DNA of 45,784 bases, from the NCBI GenBank assembly GCA_031316315.1, contig JADBEO010000035.1, positions 1 to 45,784 on the forward strand, read 5' to 3'. The notes beneath the pieces are model-generated. The model did no database searches. It worked only from the letters and a program-made list of their open reading frames with translations, and was not told the DNA's origin. The position numbers and the translations under genes are program-made. Positions 24,160-29,756 of the stretch are shown one piece after another. Source of the stretch: Chelatococcus sambhunathii (GTDB lineage: Bacteria > Pseudomonadota > Alphaproteobacteria > Rhizobiales > Methylopilaceae). How positions within the stretch are numbered: position 1 is the first letter of the stretch; each line of letters opens with the position of its first letter.

Positions 24160-25497
24160 TCAGTTGCGGTCGCGGAACCCGCCGCGGAACGAGCGGGGGC
24201 CGCCTTCGAAGCGGGCCGGCCCGCCATCGAAACGCTGCGCAGCCTCACGCTGACCCCTCAAGCCACGGCCGCCGAAGTCCTGCGCCGACCGACCGAAGTC
24301 GCCCGGCTGGCGGTGCGAGACGCCAGGGTCGCGGCGAACCGGCCCGGCGTCGCGCCGGAACTTGACGAAGGGCTGCCGCCCGAGGCCGGGATCGGCCTGA
24401 ACGTCGCCGCGGCCACGGCCCGGATCGCGAAGCTTGAGAGGCTGGCGCCCCGGAAGGCGGTCATGCACGACGACGTCGTCAGGCTGCGGTTCGAAGGTCT
24501 TGACCGTGCGGCGGCCGGGATCGCGCCCGCCGTCGAGCCGGACCCGGTCGGGCTGGCGGGGCTGCAGGCCCCCCGGTCCCTTGAGGCCCGGCGCAGGCGG
24601 CGGGTTGTCGCCGAACTGCTTCATGCGCGGCTTCGGGTTGACCGGATCGCGCGGATCGCGCGGGTCGTTCGGGTTCTGCGGATACTTCGGGTCCTGGGGA
24701 TCCTTCGGCGTGCACTGGTTGATCACGACGTTGATGTCGACGTCGTTGAAGATGTTGGTCCAGTTGTTGATCCAGGTCCCGATGAACGTCGGGTTCCACG
24801 GCGCGAAGACGTCGATGTCGATGTTCACCTCCGGACCCTTGATCTTGGGCGGCAGGACGAACACCGCGACGCCGCCGACGAAGCGGATGTCGGTCACGAA
24901 TGCGGTCGAGGCGTAGAGGTCGCCGTACTGCGCGACGGTCGGGCCGCCCCCGCAGGTCGAGCCGAACTTCTTCGCGTCCATGAAGGTCCAGAGCTTGTCG
25001 TCGTTGAACGCCTCCATCTTCGCCGGCGTCAGCTCGGCGTCCGGCGGCGTCGGCGCCCAGCCGACCCATTCATCGCTCGTGCGCCAGACGACCCAGCCGG
25101 GGCTGAACTCCGCGCCCGGAACCCACAGCCAGCCGCGGTCCGCCTCGTGGATCCAGCGGCCGTAGTGATGGACAATCGCGCCCCATGGCGTCTTGTCGGA
25201 GAAGTACCAGCCGTAGGTCTTGGTGAAGACCCAGTCGCAGGCCGGGTAGGGATGCCAGCCGCGCGGGGTGACGGTCGGCCGCCAGACGTCGCCGTATTTC
25301 TCATGCGTGACGAACTCGCCGTACTGGCCGAGCGTCTGCTTCATGGCCTCGAGCGTCGGCGCCGTCTGGGCGTGCGCAACGCCGGGAGCGACGAAGACCG
25401 CGCCGGCGAAAGCGAGCGGGGCGGCCGCCAGTCCGAAGGCGAGCGCGGCGGTTCTGAAGCTGGTCCGGATGTTCTGGTTCCAGGAGATCGGGTTCAT
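24160..25497 (-). CDS. Secreted DUF6600 (WxxGxW-repeat-like) protein
   Basis: 445 residues. A signal peptide ends near GVAHAQ. From about 60 to 150 a tryptophan-rich repeat region follows (WRPTVTPRGWHPYPACDWVF, TYGWYFSDKTPWGAIVHHYG, GRWIHEADRGWLWVPGAEF, GWVVWRTSDEWVGWAPTPP). This is the DUF6600/WxxGxW pattern. It is followed by PKDPQDPKYPQNPNDPRDPR, a Asp-Pro tandem stretch near 270-295, and a long Arg/Gly/Asp-rich disordered tail (GGPARFEGGPRSFRGGFRDRN). The start at 25497 has GGAGGA 6 nt upstream; an earlier ATG at 25509 contains that site and is rejected. It is divergent from the small Gly-rich gene, and both carry the putative ECF promoter, so it is probably an envelope protein of this sigma regulon. 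The biochemical role is unknown. Confidence 0.8.
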   Translation of the reverse strand: MNPISWNQNIRTSFRTAALAFGLAAAPLAFAGAVFVAPGVAHAQTAPTLEAMKQTLGQYGEFVTHEKYGDVWRPTVTPRGWHPYPACDWVFTKTYGWYFSDKTPWGAIVHHYGRWIHEADRGWLWVPGAEFSPGWVVWRTSDEWVGWAPTPPDAELTPAKMEAFNDDKLWTFMDAKKFGSTCGGGPTVAQYGDLYASTAFVTDIRFVGGVAVFVLPPKIKGPEVNIDIDVFAPWNPTFIGTWINNWTNIFNDVDINVVINQCTPKDPQDPKYPQNPNDPRDPRDPVNPKPRMKQFGDNPPPAPGLKGPGGLQPRQPDRVRLDGGRDPGRRTVKTFEPQPDDVVVHDRLPGRQPLKLRDPGRGRGDVQADPGLGRQPFVKFRRDAGPVRRDPGVSHRQPGDFGRSAQDFGGRGLRGQREAAQRFDGGPARFEGGPRSFRGGFRDRN

Positions 25498-25621
25498 GGT
25501 GTCCTCCATGGGCGGCTACGGACGGCGAGGAGGCGCGGGCGGCATGCGCCGGGGCGCTGTCCCGATCGTCAGGGGCTCCCTTGTCTGCGGGGCCGCGCCA
25601 TGCGGCCCCTGCGCTCGCTGG

Positions 25622-25648
25622 GTCGTGAGACGGAGGCGAAAGGTTCAA
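25622..25648 (-). promoter_or_regulatory. Putative ECF sigma promoter (DUF6600 gene)
   Basis: Minus-strand TTGAACC (25648-25642), 14 bp, CACGAC (25627-25622), about 125 bp before the DUF6600 start. Same motif and spacing as at 25910 and 28455. Confidence 0.7.
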
Positions 25649-25909: not shown

Positions 25910-25936
25910 TTGAACCGTCGCCGCGGACGTCGCGAC
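25910..25936 (+). promoter_or_regulatory. Putative ECF sigma promoter (small Gly-rich secreted gene)
   Basis: TTGAACC (25910-25916), 14 bp, CGCGAC (25931-25936), 57 bp before the ATG at 25994. Same motif and spacing as two other sites in this locus. Confidence 0.72.
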
Positions 25937-25993
25937 AGACGGTCATCGGGGCCGCGACGGGCGGCCTCCCAAAAATCTCAAGGGGATGCCGCC

Positions 25994-26281
25994 ATGTCCA
26001 ACCTGACCCTCGCTTCCAAGCTCTTCGCCGGCCGCAAGGCCCTGTCCGCCCTCGCTGTCGTCGGCGTCGCGCTCTCGCCGGCCGCAGCCTCCGCCAAGGG
26101 CTGGGGCCATCACCACGGCGGCTACGGCGCCGCGGTCGCCGGCGGCCTCATCCTCGGCGCGATCGTCGCCGACGCCGCCTACGCCGACAGCTACGACGCC
26201 CCCGCCTGCTGGACCGAAAAGCGCGTCCGCTACGGCGCCTATGGCGAACGCTACGTCACCCGGGTCCGGGTCTGCGACTGA
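25994..26281 (+). CDS. Small secreted Gly-zipper protein
   Basis: 95 residues: a signal peptide ending around AAASAK, a His/Gly-rich stretch (GWGHHHGGYG), a short glycine-zipper hydrophobic run (AAVAGGLILGAIVADAAY) and a C-terminal part with two Cys (PACWTEKRVR ... VRVCD) that could form a disulphide. Similar short GHHHGG...AGGLILGA proteins are common and unnamed in Hyphomicrobiales. The start at 25994 has AAGGGGATG upstream. It carries the ECF-type promoter and precedes the subtilase, whose N-terminus shares the Gly-zipper pattern. Confidence 0.75.
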   Translation: MSNLTLASKLFAGRKALSALAVVGVALSPAAASAKGWGHHHGGYGAAVAGGLILGAIVADAAYADSYDAPACWTEKRVRYGAYGERYVTRVRVCD

Positions 26282-26315: not shown

Positions 26316-26347
26316 GGGCGGAGCCTCTTGGGGGAGAGGCTCCGCCC
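26316..26347 (+). terminator. Strong hairpin between the Gly-zipper gene and the subtilase gene
   Basis: A perfect 13-bp stem GGGCGGAGCCTCT / AGAGGCTCCGCCC with a six-base loop, 35 bp after the stop. There is no T-run after it, so it may be a stabilising or attenuating hairpin rather than a full terminator. Confidence 0.45.
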
Positions 26348-26517: not shown

Positions 26518-28377
26518 ATGAGCGCTCCCAGTGGTCCGAAGTCCCGCAGCGCCGCTGCGCGCCGCCTGCGTCTTGCGTTCGCTCTGCCGCTCGGCGCGGT
26601 TCTCGTCTTCGGCAGCGTCGCGGCCGAAGCGCAGGACTATTCGCGCGGCTACGGCGGCGGCGGCGGGAAGGACTACAAGTGGCGCGGTGGGCGCGGCCAT
26701 GGGGGCGGAGGCGGCGGCGCGGCCATCGCAGGCGGCCTGATCGGGCTCGGCGCCGGCCTCGCCATCGGCGCGGCCACGGCCGAGCGCCGCAGGGTACGCG
26801 AAGAAACCGTCATCGAGGAATACGAGGTCCGTCCGGCCCGCAGGCCCGTCAAGGCGCGGCGCGCGCCGGTCGAGGTCGTCGAGGAGCAGCCCTACTACGA
26901 ACCGAGCCGGCCGAAGCGCTGGAAGCCGCGCCGTCCAGATGTCGAAGCGTACGAAGAGGCGCCGCCGCCGCGCCGCCGCCCGGCGCAACCGCAGAAGCCG
27001 AAGGTCGCCAAGGCCGCGCCGGCGAAGCCGAGGGACAGGCTCGAACCGCAGGCGGCGCCCGTCGCAGCTCCCGCGATGGCCGCGCCGATCAACCCGCCGC
27101 CCCCGGCGGCGCCGTTTGCGCAGCAGCCGCCGCAGCCGGCGCTCGTCGCCTCCGGAGGGCCGGACGAGGTTCCGGGCGAGGTCCTGATCGAGGTCGGCTC
27201 CAACCTGACCGACGCGCAGGTGGACGACCTCGCGGCTCGGCAGCGGCTCGAGCGGCTGGAGTCCCACAAGCTCGAACTGACCGGCACGACCGTGTTCCGC
27301 TGGCGCATCCCGGACGGCCGCAGCGTCGACCAGGTGGTCGACGCGCTGAGGGCCGATCCGCTCGTGCGCTCGGCGCAGCCGAACCACATCTTCGAGCTCA
27401 GCGACGCGCGCCCGAGCGAGCTCGCGGCGAGCCAGTACGCCGTCGCCAAGATGCGGGTTGACGAGGCCCAGGCCTCCGCCACCGGCAAGGGCGTGCGGAT
27501 CGCCGTCATCGACTCCGCGGTCGATCCCACCCATCCGGCGCTCAAGGGCGCGGTCGTGGAGAGCTTCGATCCGATCGGCGGCGAGGTCGCCCCGCATCCG
27601 CACGGCACGGCGGTCGCGGCCCTGGCGGCCGGCCGCGGCGAGCTCGCGAGCCCGGCGCCGGACGCCGAGATCTTCGCCGTCCGCGCCTTCGCGCCGGAGC
27701 GCAAGTCGAAGCTCGGCGCGCAGGGCACCACCATGCTGATCCTGCGCGGCCTCGACTGGGCGTCGAGCCGGGGCGTGCGGGTCGTCAATATGAGTTTCGC
27801 CGGGCCGAAGGATTCCAAGATTTCCGAGGCGATCGCCGCCGGCGCCGCCAAGGGGACGATCTATGTCGCCGCCGCCGGCAACGCTGGCCCGTCCTCGCCG
27901 CCGCTCTTCCCGGCCGCGGACCGCAACGTGATCGCGGTCACCGCGACCGACGCCGAGGACCGGATCCTGCCGGTCGCCAATCGCGGCGACCACCTCAGCG
28001 TCGCGGCGCCGGGCGTTGACGTGCTGGTCGCCTCGCCGGGCGGCGGCTTCGGCTTCATGTCCGGCACCTCCATGGCCTCGGCCGAGGTCGCCGGCGTGAT
28101 CGCCACGATGGCGGAGGCCGATCCGGGCCTGCCGGCCTGGCGGGCGCGCGCCGCGCTGACCGGCTCGGCCCGCGACCTCGGCGCGCCGGGGCCGGACGCC
28201 GAGTTCGGGGCGGGGGCGGTCGACGCCGTCGGCGCGCTCGAGGCGCTGGGCGTCGTGCGCCAGCCGCCGGTCGCAGGCGTGGAGAGCCCGGAAAGAACGG
28301 CCTCGACACGGTCGGCCTCGGCAGGCCAGCCTTCGCTCTCCGATTCCGACGTCCCGCCGGACGCCGGGGCCAGATAG
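26518..28377 (+). CDS. Subtilisin-like serine protease (S8) with Gly-zipper and Pro-rich N-terminus
   Basis: 619 residues. Signal-like segment (LRLAFALPLGAVLVFGSVAA), Gly-rich region with a glycine zipper (about 67-86, AAIAGGLIGLGAGLAIGAA), then an Arg/Pro/Ala-rich linker (90-215). A propeptide-like domain spans about 218-296 (GEVLIEVGSNLTDAQVDDLA ... AQPNHIFEL). The catalytic domain has Asp332 (AVIDSAVDPTHP), His362 (HPHGTAVAALAAG), oxyanion Asn455 (AAAGNAG) and Ser518 (FMSGTSMAS). The triad is complete, so it should be active in the periplasm or outside the cell. It precedes the ECF sigma/anti-sigma pair on the same strand. No ECF-type motif lies directly upstream, so transcription probably comes from the 25910 promoter or an unseen one. 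Confidence 0.9.
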   Translation: MSAPSGPKSRSAAARRLRLAFALPLGAVLVFGSVAAEAQDYSRGYGGGGGKDYKWRGGRGHGGGGGGAAIAGGLIGLGAGLAIGAATAERRRVREETVIEEYEVRPARRPVKARRAPVEVVEEQPYYEPSRPKRWKPRRPDVEAYEEAPPPRRRPAQPQKPKVAKAAPAKPRDRLEPQAAPVAAPAMAAPINPPPPAAPFAQQPPQPALVASGGPDEVPGEVLIEVGSNLTDAQVDDLAARQRLERLESHKLELTGTTVFRWRIPDGRSVDQVVDALRADPLVRSAQPNHIFELSDARPSELAASQYAVAKMRVDEAQASATGKGVRIAVIDSAVDPTHPALKGAVVESFDPIGGEVAPHPHGTAVAALAAGRGELASPAPDAEIFAVRAFAPERKSKLGAQGTTMLILRGLDWASSRGVRVVNMSFAGPKDSKISEAIAAGAAKGTIYVAAAGNAGPSSPPLFPAADRNVIAVTATDAEDRILPVANRGDHLSVAAPGVDVLVASPGGGFGFMSGTSMASAEVAGVIATMAEADPGLPAWRARAALTGSARDLGAPGPDAEFGAGAVDAVGALEALGVVRQPPVAGVESPERTASTRSASAGQPSLSDSDVPPDAGAR

Positions 28378-28430
28378 CTTTCGAGGCCAAGTGCTTTTCC
28401 GAGGCCAGGTGCTTTTTCGAGGCCCAAGAA
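28378..28430 (+). repeat. Three-copy short tandem repeat after the subtilase gene
   Basis: Three diverged copies of TTTTCGAGGCCAAGTGC-like units of 16-19 nt follow the subtilase stop directly, ending before the sigma-gene promoter. Confidence 0.6.
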
Positions 28431-28454
28431 TACAGCGCGAAACCGCGCGAAGCC

Positions 28455-28481
28455 TTGAACCTTTCCGCGCGCCGCCGCGAC
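28455..28481 (+). promoter_or_regulatory. Putative autoregulatory ECF sigma promoter
   Basis: TTGAACC (28455-28461), 14 bp, CGCGAC (28476-28481), 28 bp before the sigma-factor ATG. Shares bases beyond the core (TTGAACCTTTC) with the 25622-25648 site. Confidence 0.72.
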
Positions 28482-28509
28482 CCATGACCGAGAGGCCACG
28501 GACGGCGTC

Positions 28510-29070
28510 ATGACGGAGGTTTCGGACGAACTCCTCCTCGGGCGCGTCGCGGCCGGCGACCGGGCCGCGATGCGGAGCCTTTACGCGCGCCATTCCACGC
28601 GCTGTTTCAGGTTCCTGATCCGTCTCGTGCGCGACGAAGCGCGGGCGGAGGATCTGATGAACGACACCTTTTTCGACGTCTGGCGACAGGCGGAGCGGTT
28701 CGAGGGACGGTCAGCCGTGTCGACCTGGATCCTCTCGATCGCCCGCTTCAAGGCGCTGTCGTCCATGCGCCGCACGACCGAGAAGGAGCTCGAGCCGGAG
28801 GTCGCAGAGGCGGTCGAGGACGACGCCGACACGCCCGAGGTCACGGCGCAGAAGCTCAGCAAGGCGCAGGCCATGCGGCGCTGCCTCGAGATGCTCACGA
28901 CCGAGCACCGCGAGATCATCGATCTCGTCTATTACCATGAGAAGTCGGTCGAGGAGGCGAGCGAGATCCTCTCGATTCCGGCCGCGACCGTGAAGACGCG
29001 CATGTTCTACGCCCGAAAGAAGCTCGCCGAGCTGCTCTCCGCGGCCGGGATCGACAGGGGGTGGCCATGA
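28510..29070 (+). CDS. ECF-type RNA polymerase sigma factor
   Basis: 186 residues. Sigma-2 region about 15-85 (ALYARHSTRCFRFLIRLVRD, DLMNDTFFDVWRQAERFEGR, SAVSTWILSIARFKALSSMR) and sigma-4 about 120-175 (RCLEMLTTEHREIIDLVYYH, SVEEASEILSIPAATVKTRM, FYARKKLAELL). There is no sigma-3 domain, as expected for ECF factors. Its stop overlaps the anti-sigma start (ATGA), so the pair is translationally coupled. Upstream it has the same motif found before two envelope-protein genes, which suggests autoregulation and control of this locus. Confidence 0.93.
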   Translation: MTEVSDELLLGRVAAGDRAAMRSLYARHSTRCFRFLIRLVRDEARAEDLMNDTFFDVWRQAERFEGRSAVSTWILSIARFKALSSMRRTTEKELEPEVAEAVEDDADTPEVTAQKLSKAQAMRRCLEMLTTEHREIIDLVYYHEKSVEEASEILSIPAATVKTRMFYARKKLAELLSAAGIDRGWP

Positions 29071-29756
29071 GCACGGATGGCAAGGTGACCACCGGACCTG
29101 ACCACCCGCACGAGGCCGATCTGCTTGCGCCCTGGCGTGCGATCGACCGCCTCGACGCGGCCGACGCGGCAGCGCTCGAGCGCATGCTCGCGGACGATCC
29201 ATCGCTCGCGCGCAGGCTCGAGATCGCCGCCGAGGAGCGCGACGGGACCGTCGCCCTGAACGAGGCGCTGCCGGCGCCCTCGCGCGCGGCGATGGACAAG
29301 CTGTTTGCGAAGATCGAGGCGGAAGAGGCTGCGCGCGCGCCGAAAACCGCGGGCCTGATGCGCTGGCTGTCGGTCAAGCTCAGCCTCGCTTCGCCCAGCC
29401 AACTCGCCTTCGGCGCGACGGCGGCGGCGCTCGTCATCGCGCTGCAGGCGGGGCTTCTCGCCGGCGCCTATCTCGGGACGGGCGAGGGGACTTACGAAAC
29501 GGCCTCCGCGCCGAGCGCGGAGACGCCAGTCGCGCGTCCAGGCGCCACCGTGCTGGTGGCCTTCGAGCCGGGGGCGACCGCTCAGCAGATCGCGGCGGCG
29601 CTGACCGAAGCGAAGGTCGAGATCGTCGCCGGCCCCAAGCCCGGCGGCGTGTTCGTCGCCCGCGCGCTGGAGGGCAAGACGCAGGACGTCGTCGCCGCGC
29701 TGAAGGCGAAGAAGGGCGTGGTCAAGCTCGCCACGCCGGGCGACCCGGCGCCGTAG
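29067..29756 (+). CDS. Membrane anti-sigma factor with C-terminal protease-propeptide-like domain
   Basis: 229 residues. The N-terminal cytoplasmic part (LLAPWRAIDRLDAADAAALE, MLADDPSLARRLEIAAEER) has the layout of RskA-like anti-sigma factors without a zinc HxxxCxxC. One transmembrane helix lies at about 112-134 (FGATAAALVIALQAGLLAGA). The C-terminal domain, about 160-224, should be periplasmic: VLVAFEPGATAQQIAAALTE, AKVEIVAGPKPGGVFVARAL, VVAALKAKKGVVKLATPG. That pattern resembles the subtilase propeptide-like domain of the protease encoded just upstream. The start at 29067 (ATGA overlap, AGGGGG upstream) is preferred over GTG at 29061. It is expected to hold the sigma factor until the C-terminal domain receives a signal. 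Confidence 0.85.
   Translation: MSTDGKVTTGPDHPHEADLLAPWRAIDRLDAADAAALERMLADDPSLARRLEIAAEERDGTVALNEALPAPSRAAMDKLFAKIEAEEAARAPKTAGLMRWLSVKLSLASPSQLAFGATAAALVIALQAGLLAGAYLGTGEGTYETASAPSAETPVARPGATVLVAFEPGATAQQIAAALTEAKVEIVAGPKPGGVFVARALEGKTQDVVAALKAKKGVVKLATPGDPAP

Follow-up and report, generated by a model that had tools for sequence, protein, structure and literature searches.

What links a subtilase gene to the sigma factor and anti-sigma factor genes beside it in Chelatococcus sambhunathii, and does the anti-sigma factor carry a relative of the protease's own prodomain? We addressed these questions in a 45,784-nucleotide stretch of contig JADBEO010000035.1 (hereafter the window). The three genes that an earlier note had read here, encoding a subtilase, a sigma factor, and an anti-sigma factor, were confirmed in place, and their parts are as follows.

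26518–28377, + strand: subtilase (S8) precursor, 619 aa, recognized by its Pfam match and by the triad D332/H362/S518 with N455
27139–27384, + strand: subtilase prodomain (PF22148), ending at the QPN signature, Asn289
27484–28215, + strand: subtilase catalytic domain, PF00082 in Pfam
28510–29070, + strand: ECF sigma factor, 186 aa (Sigma70_r2 and r4_2; NCBIfam PRK12515 over its cut-off)
29061–29756, + strand: anti-sigma factor, 231 aa, with a cytoplasmic helical domain, one membrane helix, a linker, and a periplasmic prodomain-like domain (predicted)
29403–29468, + strand: membrane helix of the anti-sigma factor with the near-invariant Gln129 (helix 112–138 in the model; extent set by eye)
29493–29507, + strand: juxtamembrane motif YETAS, residues 145–149, a candidate site-1 site from its conservation and fixed spacing
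29535–29753, + strand: prodomain-like C-terminal domain (CTD) of the anti-sigma factor, nearly tail-less, from profiles and the model

The window protease matches Peptidase_S8 in Pfam with an E-value of 2.1e-40 and is composed of a signal peptide, a glycine zipper with a Pro/Arg-rich stretch, the prodomain, and the catalytic domain, the signal peptide and glycine zipper being assigned by eye. Its prodomain (residues 208–289) scores 24.4 bits against PF22148, Fervidolysin_NPro-like, for which the cut-off is 21. Among 117 aligned subtilase rows, the catalytic residues are retained wherever the rows cover them (Asp in 116, His in 116, Ser in 109, and the oxyanion Asn in 115), and the S8 subtilase of this module, with its complete Asp-His-Ser triad and oxyanion Asn, is predicted to be active. 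The sigma factor possesses Sigma70 regions 2 and 4 only in Pfam, as expected of an ECF sigma factor, and its gene overlaps that of the anti-sigma factor at 29061–29070. The structure model of the anti-sigma factor predicts N-terminal helices and one membrane helix, with the prodomain-like domain probably on the periplasmic side. The window protein has no match to a Pfam anti-sigma family; its relative L289 combines zf-HC2 and a PF22148-type CTD within one 217-aa protein. The membrane Gln is conserved in 60 of 64 non-redundant anti-sigma sequences.

The anti-sigma CTD and the protease prodomain had been likened by eye in the earlier note. This likeness is not visible when the two window proteins are compared directly by BLASTP (best E 0.75), whereas it emerges with the profiles of their relatives. 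In hhalign, 40 CTDs aligned with 38 prodomains of the module at a score of 31.6 (E 7.3e-6; 100 column shuffles reached at most 20.4), and 66 CTDs aligned with 21 prodomain-type domains from outside the module at 52.0 (E 2.8e-10; 60 shuffles reached at most 13.1), the E-values applying to single comparisons. The prodomain family PF22148 is also the top Pfam match of the window CTD, though below the cut-off (12.7 bits at full length and 15.9–16.1 bits for the domain alone). Two orthologous anti-sigma CTDs pass it, with 24.7 bits in L289 and 21.1 bits, barely over, in L213; scans of whole genomes with PF22148 place two anti-sigma CTDs above the cut-off, and 13 of 40 order-level CTDs match the family at E ≤ 1 (best 5.4e-5). 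Prodomains were not reached by HMMER with the CTD profile alone, which in 20 genomes returned 20 anti-sigma factors and nothing else below E 0.04. Sequence searches of the PDB with either alignment gave nothing meaningful (best E 0.3 and 1.5), and PF05922 (Inhibitor_I9) matched in none of 96 genomes.

Within the anti-sigma model, CTD residues 163–226 adopt a β-α-β-β-α-β arrangement with a pLDDT of about 95, and the CTD model used for fold comparison has a pLDDT of 91. The top Foldseek matches to solved structures include subtilisin prosegments (3whi_A at rank 1 and 1spb_P at rank 3, TM 0.63/0.65), although no match reached E 0.001 and the scores of other ferredoxin-like folds are similar. The matches listed include 1itp, the structure of POIA1, which together with YIB2 belongs to family I9. 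As modelled, the CTD thus shows the β-α-β-β-α-β fold and lies close to solved prosegments. Overall, hhalign, the comparison with solved folds, and the two orthologues over the Pfam cut-off uphold the prodomain-like character of the CTD in both profile and fold, and the aligned families indicate that it is homologous to subtilase prodomains.

We also weighed a different identity for this domain, namely a SPOR-like or other ferredoxin-fold cell-wall sensor whose neighboring subtilase is only a co-regulated envelope protease. SPOR was raised by Pfam, in which 5 of 40 CTDs match it (best E 9.1e-5), and by the first hhalign run, with a score of 29.0 (31.0 after swapping query and target); moreover, one candidate target is a peptidoglycan-type gene. 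The broader alignment led us to reject it. With 66 CTDs, the prodomain score is 52–56, whether the 21 outside domains are used by themselves or together with those of the module, whereas SPOR (PF05036) reaches 27.7–30.0, with E 3.5e-5, 71.7%, and 51 columns versus 2.8e-10, 96.8%, and 66 columns for prodomains. In addition, no SPOR structure is present among the best 50 Foldseek rows, and it is the PF22148 scans of whole genomes that pick anti-sigma CTDs over their cut-off. We consider a SPOR-like sensor very improbable. HMA, taken as a control fold, was weak in hhalign.

A prodomain acts as chaperone and inhibitor of the protease to which it belongs, and its C-terminal tail enters the active site, though the tail is not essential in some subtilases (PMC10580911, available part). 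In the column equivalent to the QPN Asn, an assignment that depends on the alignment, Ala, Thr, or Ser is present in 99 of 134 CTDs versus Asn in 36 of 38 prodomains, and the preceding Pro is kept in 37 of 134 CTDs versus 32 of 38 prodomains. Past this column, 118 of 134 CTDs have a tail of 0–2 residues, and the window CTD has one of four. Both the QPN signature and a tail able to plug the active site therefore appear to be missing from most CTDs, and the domain resembles neither an inhibitory prodomain nor an I9-type inhibitor in these features. This makes classical inhibition of the protease by the anti-sigma factor, one of the roles that had been suggested for the CTD, less likely, and docking appears the likelier function. 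However, the docking surface may itself have changed, since the QPN residues conserved in prodomains are mostly not kept in CTDs. The stand-alone propeptide-like inhibitors POIA1 and YIB2 offer a parallel in that the prodomain fold is detached from a protease, but their C-terminal residues matter for inhibition, as far as the available part of PMC10580911 describes them, whereas the CTD is almost tail-less and fused to a membrane anti-sigma factor.

A common promoter motif connects the genes of the module and some of their neighbors. Three copies are listed here, and five more sites are predicted elsewhere.

28455–28484, + strand: TTGAACC-N16-CGACCCA, the conserved promoter that precedes the sigma gene
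25910–25939, + strand: second copy, before a gene for a small secreted protein (25994–26281) that itself precedes the subtilase gene
25619–25648, − strand: third copy, facing a DUF6600 gene (24160–25509, − strand)

The core GAACC-N16-CGAC is present in 102 of 133 regions upstream of sigma genes (not de-duplicated), and it usually also precedes subtilase genes that lie apart, so that the subtilase appears to belong to the regulon of the sigma factor.

The co-occurrence of the sigma, anti-sigma, and S8 genes in other genomes, which the earlier note had proposed as a check, proved widespread. A subtilase gene stands next to the sigma/anti-sigma pair at 116 of 135 Alphaproteobacterial loci; one further locus has a relic, eight are cut by contig ends, and 10, which are uncut on the side where S8 usually lies, have none. 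Where S8 is present, the gap to the nearer open frame has a median of 3 bases and a maximum of 884, and gene order varies, with three layouts in addition to sigma–anti-sigma–S8. Carriers include Methylobacterium, Bradyrhizobium, Afipia, Nitrobacter, and Tardiphaga. In a class search, all 14 returned loci with a match in the CTD have an S8 gene within 1.5 kb, versus 1 of the other 14 returned loci, of which 13 match outside the CTD and one by chance. The match of L179, confined to the CTD, was discarded as a chance match in a frame that looks amidotransferase-like by eye. The CTD is retained at the loci that have no S8 gene nearby. We searched seven genomes with such loci: at E 1e-6, the module protease found no match in five, whereas it did in the positive control genome L101, and the other two have S8 genes elsewhere. 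The five comprise two isolates and three draft metagenome genomes of unstated completeness. As they keep the sigma/anti-sigma pair, CTD included, without such a subtilase, a strict dependence on the protease is argued against.

Persistence of the pair without S8 is also what would be expected if the subtilase were a mere output of the sigma factor. Its apparent place in the regulon agrees with this, as does the kinship of the CTD to prodomains, which are chaperones and inhibitors and in some subtilases do not need the tail (PMC10580911, in the part available). However, the CTD has mostly lost its tail and the QPN signature, and the subtilase's own prodomain bears these very features, making a second inhibitor unnecessary. 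We regard a role as output alone as rather unlikely.

If the protease instead acts on the anti-sigma factor, a site of cutting may be sought near the membrane. A [YF]xTAS motif is conserved inside the linker, which is modelled at low confidence. In 96 of 122 sequences, 15–17 residues separate the motif from the membrane Gln, whereas its distance to the CTD ranges from 16 to 102 residues in 125, and it is a candidate site-1 cut held at a fixed distance from the membrane. Of 117 S8-bearing loci, 15 do not fit a strict motif pattern, two of them solely through the limits of the search, and 13 of 18 loci without S8 do fit it, implying that motif and S8 do not track closely. Spacing fixed to the membrane and not to the CTD would also suit a receptor: on binding the subtilase, or a different protein of the periplasm, the CTD would trigger a conformational change that exposes [YF]xTAS to a site-1 protease such as signal peptidase. 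Signal-peptidase sites consist of small residues and usually lie nearer to the hydrophobic stretch than about 10 residues; the small residues of TAS resemble such a site, but the motif is about 10 residues past that stretch, beyond the usual distance. A precedent is RsiV, which signal peptidase cuts once lysozyme has bound to it (PMC4183432, available part). The two systems would be alike in that site-1 cutting follows when an enzyme is bound by an outer domain of the anti-sigma factor; they differ in that lysozyme and signal peptidase serve sigma-V, according to the same part of that source, whereas here the module's own protease would be bound, by a domain related to prodomains. The strictly kept triad, unneeded in a mere ligand, speaks against a pure RsiV-like receptor, which we consider unlikely.

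We tentatively prefer, as a plausible reading, an autoregulated ECF sigma/anti-sigma/subtilase module in which the protease docks on the CTD and cuts or exposes the motif. The homology of the CTD, the conserved gene association, the intact triad, and the common promoter motif are its computed parts. The anti-sigma factor would hold the sigma factor at the membrane, and the exported subtilase, once freed of its own prodomain, would dock on the CTD via the surface that its prodomain had used. Because the CTD lacks the tail, the active site of the docked subtilase would stay open, and the protease could cut [YF]xTAS next to the membrane or expose it to another site-1 protease. Intramembrane cutting, for which an RseP-type second cut may well serve, would then free the sigma factor, which would raise the levels of sigma factor, anti-sigma factor, and subtilase along with a set of small secreted and envelope proteins. 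The signal would be the level of free mature subtilase. A fully self-contained loop, with the tail-less prodomain as receptor, free mature subtilase of the periplasm as signal, and the subtilase as sensor, site-1 protease, and regulon product in positive feedback, is possible but on the doubtful side.

In the RseA/DegS/RseP envelope-stress pathway, an ECF sigma factor is likewise held by a one-pass anti-sigma factor, and release in the window module, too, probably proceeds by stepwise proteolysis. However, the module encodes its own subtilase, and RseA is not known to carry a prodomain-like domain. A subtilase gene is also conserved alongside the ECF sigma gene in ECF54, for which the available part of PMC8999054 describes no anti-sigma factor and proposes proteolytic control of the sigma factor itself, whereas an anti-sigma factor is present here. 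Our literature search found no description of a prodomain-like anti-sigma factor or of this module, although the 2021 ECF reclassification may mention the S8 neighborhood. In many Alphaproteobacteria, a prodomain has seemingly moved onto a membrane-bound regulator and has mostly been kept with its protease. If docking holds, the anti-sigma factor would have a site-1 protease dedicated to it, the residues to test would already be at hand, and the study of a widespread sigma module could start from here.

Three genes of the window form the module.

26518-28377, forward strand: subtilase precursor, 619 aa
28510-29070, forward strand: ECF sigma factor, 186 aa, with Pfam Sigma70 regions 2 and 4
29061-29756, forward strand: anti-sigma factor, 231 aa, its start overlapping the end of the sigma gene

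Residues 323-566 of the protease match Peptidase_S8 in Pfam (E = 2.1e-40), with the triad D332, H362, and S518 plus N455, and residues 208-289 match the Fervidolysin_NPro-like prodomain at 24.4 bits (cut-off, 21). The sole Pfam match of the anti-sigma factor at E ≤ 1 is to the same prodomain, at 12.7 bits, below the cut-off. By eye, the N-terminal glycine-rich stretch of the subtilase (26518-26800, AAIAGGLIGLGAGLAIGAA) resembles the glycine zipper of the adjoining small secreted protein (25994-26281), and a strong GC-rich inverted repeat without a T run (GGCGGAGCCTCT...AGAGGCTCCGCC, 26317-26347) lies between the two genes.

The AlphaFold2 model of the anti-sigma factor contains helices within residues 16-109, a helix at 112-138 that we take for the membrane span, low-confidence segments at 139-147 and 149-152, and a β-α-β-β-α-β domain at 163-226 with pLDDT of about 95. 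This C-terminal domain (CTD) reached a pLDDT of 91 when modelled alone. In a Foldseek comparison with the PDB, prosubtilisin E (3whi_A) ranks first and the subtilisin BPN′ prosegment (1spb_P; TM 0.63/0.65) third, the latter with the highest target-normalised value among the best 50 rows. The earlier note had suggested that the CTD has the fold of a protease propeptide; ranks 1 and 3 agree with this, but none of the PDB matches reached E 0.001, and the scores of other ferredoxin-like folds are close.

The likeness between CTD and prodomain is invisible in direct BLASTP between the two window proteins, and relatives were therefore gathered. A search with the anti-sigma factor at E ≤ 0.01 matched 59 of 199 genomes of the order at 65 places, the weakest ones partial, and longer stretches were taken around 40 of these. 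The fetched loci and the window yielded alignments of 40 CTDs (A1), 38 prodomains of the adjoining proteases (A2), and 40 anti-sigma factors (A3); one locus, L057, is absent from A1 and A3 because the start motif used missed it. Comparison of A1 with A2 by hhalign gave a score of 31.6 over 63 columns (single-comparison E-value, 7.3e-6), whereas 100 column shuffles of the CTD alignment gave at most 20.4 against prodomains and 19.6 against SPOR. Among control profiles from the same class, 22 HMA domains were not close (18.8), and 30 SPOR domains were surprisingly near, at 29.0 (31.0 versus 34.1 for the prodomains with query and target swapped), so that SPOR was a serious rival identity at that stage. 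With class-level and named relatives added, 66 CTDs (A5) compared with 21 prodomain-type domains from outside the module scored 52.0 (96.8%, 66 columns; single-comparison E-value, 2.8e-10), whereas SPOR reached only 27.7 (71.7%, 51 columns) and was rejected. Prodomains and SPOR have no mutual likeness (0.8% and 3.7%). The likeness proposed for CTD and propeptide emerges in alignments of relatives and not in direct BLASTP of the window pair.

In 58 genomes of the class, the Pfam prodomain model exceeded its cut-off twice, in the window protease and in an anti-sigma factor of genome G235 (21.1 bits; cut-off, 21). Across the phylum, 28 matches occurred in 23 of 299 genomes; two are anti-sigma factors (in G235 and G759), each followed by an S8 gene, and the other 26 lie inside an S8 gene or ≤1.5 kb away. 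The G759 protein (L289:1480-2130, 217 aa) exceeds both cut-offs (zf-HC2, 46.1 bits; prodomain, 24.7 bits) and, from these matches, is predicted to be a prodomain-bearing anti-sigma factor of the zinc type, adjoining sigma and S8 genes. At three loci of other Pseudomonadota (L291, L295, and L296), small, secreted-looking, stand-alone prodomain-like proteins adjoin S8 genes and are possible separate inhibitors.

An S8 gene adjoins the sigma/anti-sigma pair in 37 of the 40 fetched loci, and the remaining three (L037, L056, and L057) have a contig end <1 kb away. A sigma alignment (A4, 31 sequences) was scanned against named genomes; among the best 80 of 588 relatives, whose hosts include Methylobacterium, Bradyrhizobium, Afipia, Nitrobacter, Tardiphaga, and Phreatobacter, all 80 have an anti-sigma factor, and S8 matches, including one relic, occur in 65. 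A class-wide anti-sigma search matched 37 of 385 genomes. Among the matches listed, S8 lies ≤1.5 kb away in 14 of 14 CTD-matching loci (L154-L167), including L164, which has no recognised sigma gene, and in 1 of 14 others (L168-L181), 13 of which match outside the CTD and one, L179, by chance. Pooling these (window + 40 + 80 + 14) gave 135 anti-sigma factors, 117 of which adjoin S8 sequence, L137 being a broken relic; the co-occurrence of the three genes in other genomes, raised earlier, is thereby borne out. In S8-bearing loci, the gap to the nearer open frame has a median of 3 and a maximum of 884 bases. Every S8 row that reaches the triad keeps it intact (D 116, H 116, N 115, and S 109 of 117 rows, all others gaps).

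Contig ends cut off 8 of the 135 (L037, L056, L057, L095, L113, L122, L123, and L145), and 10 not so cut have no S8 alongside (L087, L089, L094, L102, L103, L104, L110, L119, L133, and L144; L104 by its downstream side only). For seven of these ten loci, the genome was searched with a Bradyrhizobium module protease. At E 1e-6, five gave no match, two being isolates (L119 and L133) and three metagenome drafts of unstated completeness (L094, L103, and L110); the other two had two S8 genes elsewhere, and a module-bearing positive control (L101) was matched. The five genomes without a match speak most strongly against a strict protease requirement.

The relic belongs to a Bradyrhizobium record (L137:5311-5894), and the protease gene of L065:1543-2915 is split over two frames. 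Many Bradyrhizobium-type loci (L039, L043, L053, L055, and others) carry a second ECF-like sigma gene in the first 1-1.7 kb, roughly 2-4 kb upstream of the module. None of the six genomes sampled from the window's genus matches the anti-sigma factor (module, 28510-29756); the distribution is therefore patchy, and the module may have been acquired by transfer.

The usual gene order is sigma-anti-sigma-S8. S8 lies upstream in the window, L032, and five Methylobacterium loci, and is divergent in L079; L166 has a further layout, and L121 was sorted as S8-upstream solely because of an open-frame overlap. Upstream of sigma is a bipartite site; of 89 non-redundant regions, 73 contain its best pair, GAACC/GAC, versus ≤12 in ten shuffles. 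GAACC-N15-18-CGAC is present in 102 of 133 regions (not de-duplicated), always with 16-base spacing, and missing from 31, including L079 and several distant class loci (L159-L163 and L166). The 4.1-Mb genome contains TNGAACC-N16-CGACNNA eight times, versus none for the reversed control; three of these sites lie within 3 kb in the window.

28455: site ahead of the sigma gene
25910: site ahead of the gene for the small secreted protein (25994-26281), which precedes the subtilase
25619, reverse strand: site facing a DUF6600 gene

Of the remaining five, one lies ahead of another copy of the small gene and one ahead of a Scaffold-domain protein that we take to be L,D-transpeptidase-like. Two more precede an MFS protein whose acyltransferase-like end scores below cut-off and an argB-like gene, named by eye and probably a chance hit, and the last precedes an indistinct stretch. 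Nine loci have S8 somewhere other than downstream, and in seven of them a site lies ahead of S8: before a small gene preceding it (window, L072, L073, L090, and L098), ahead of it (L075), or directly before it (L079). In L032 the only site faces away, and L166 has none by this pattern. The subtilase therefore appears to stay under the same sigma despite the changed order. Small secreted proteins are found repeatedly behind sigma sites, BA14K-like ones (over cut-off in L060 and L069) among them. The window's small glycine-zipper protein, ending RVRVCD, has two near-identical copies (25994-26281 and G000:C33:33172, L312), each behind an identical 30-base sigma site, and similar proteins follow the site in several Methylobacterium loci.

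Among 38 prodomains, the signature is retained as Q in 27, P in 32, and N in 36. In 99 of 134 CTDs, the Asn column is occupied by A, T, or S; Pro stands just before it in 37 of 134, and ≤2 residues follow it in 118 of 134 (four in the window). With the signature mostly gone and the tail nearly absent, the CTD would be a poor candidate as a classical inhibitor and a fair one as a docking module; the propeptide-like inhibition entertained earlier thus becomes less likely. In a reading that rivals docking and release, the anti-sigma factor may restrain or mature the subtilase.

Although disordered in the model, the stretch joining the membrane helix to the CTD carries a conserved [YF]xTAS motif (Y/F 56, T 50, A 58, and S 48 of 64 non-redundant sequences), with information of 2.1-3.8 versus 0.5-1.3 at flanking linker positions. 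It lies 15-17 residues from a near-invariant membrane Gln in 96 of 122 sequences and 16-102 from the CTD. A site-1 cut is expected at a fixed height above the membrane, which this spacing fits, making [YF]xTAS a candidate. In the five genomes without a protease match, the motif is gone in L094 and L110, altered in L103, and kept in L119 and L133. The strict pattern occurs in 102 of 117 loci with S8 and 13 of 18 without, and erosion of the motif is therefore suggestive at most. In a second rival reading, the subtilase may act only as a ligand.

In the literature searched, which did not include the 2021 ECF classification, no description of the module or of a prodomain-like anti-sigma factor was found. 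ECF54 shares the subtilase gene context but is described without an anti-sigma factor (PMC8999054), and "subtilase" is absent from the main text of a class I anti-sigma coevolution study (PMC7406223). We file the module as a new variant of ECF/anti-sigma signalling, whose nearest functional analogue is RsiV with lysozyme (PMC4183432). In the proposed mechanism, the subtilase would dock on the CTD and cut or expose the [YF]xTAS motif, and the sigma factor would then be released, raising subtilase production.
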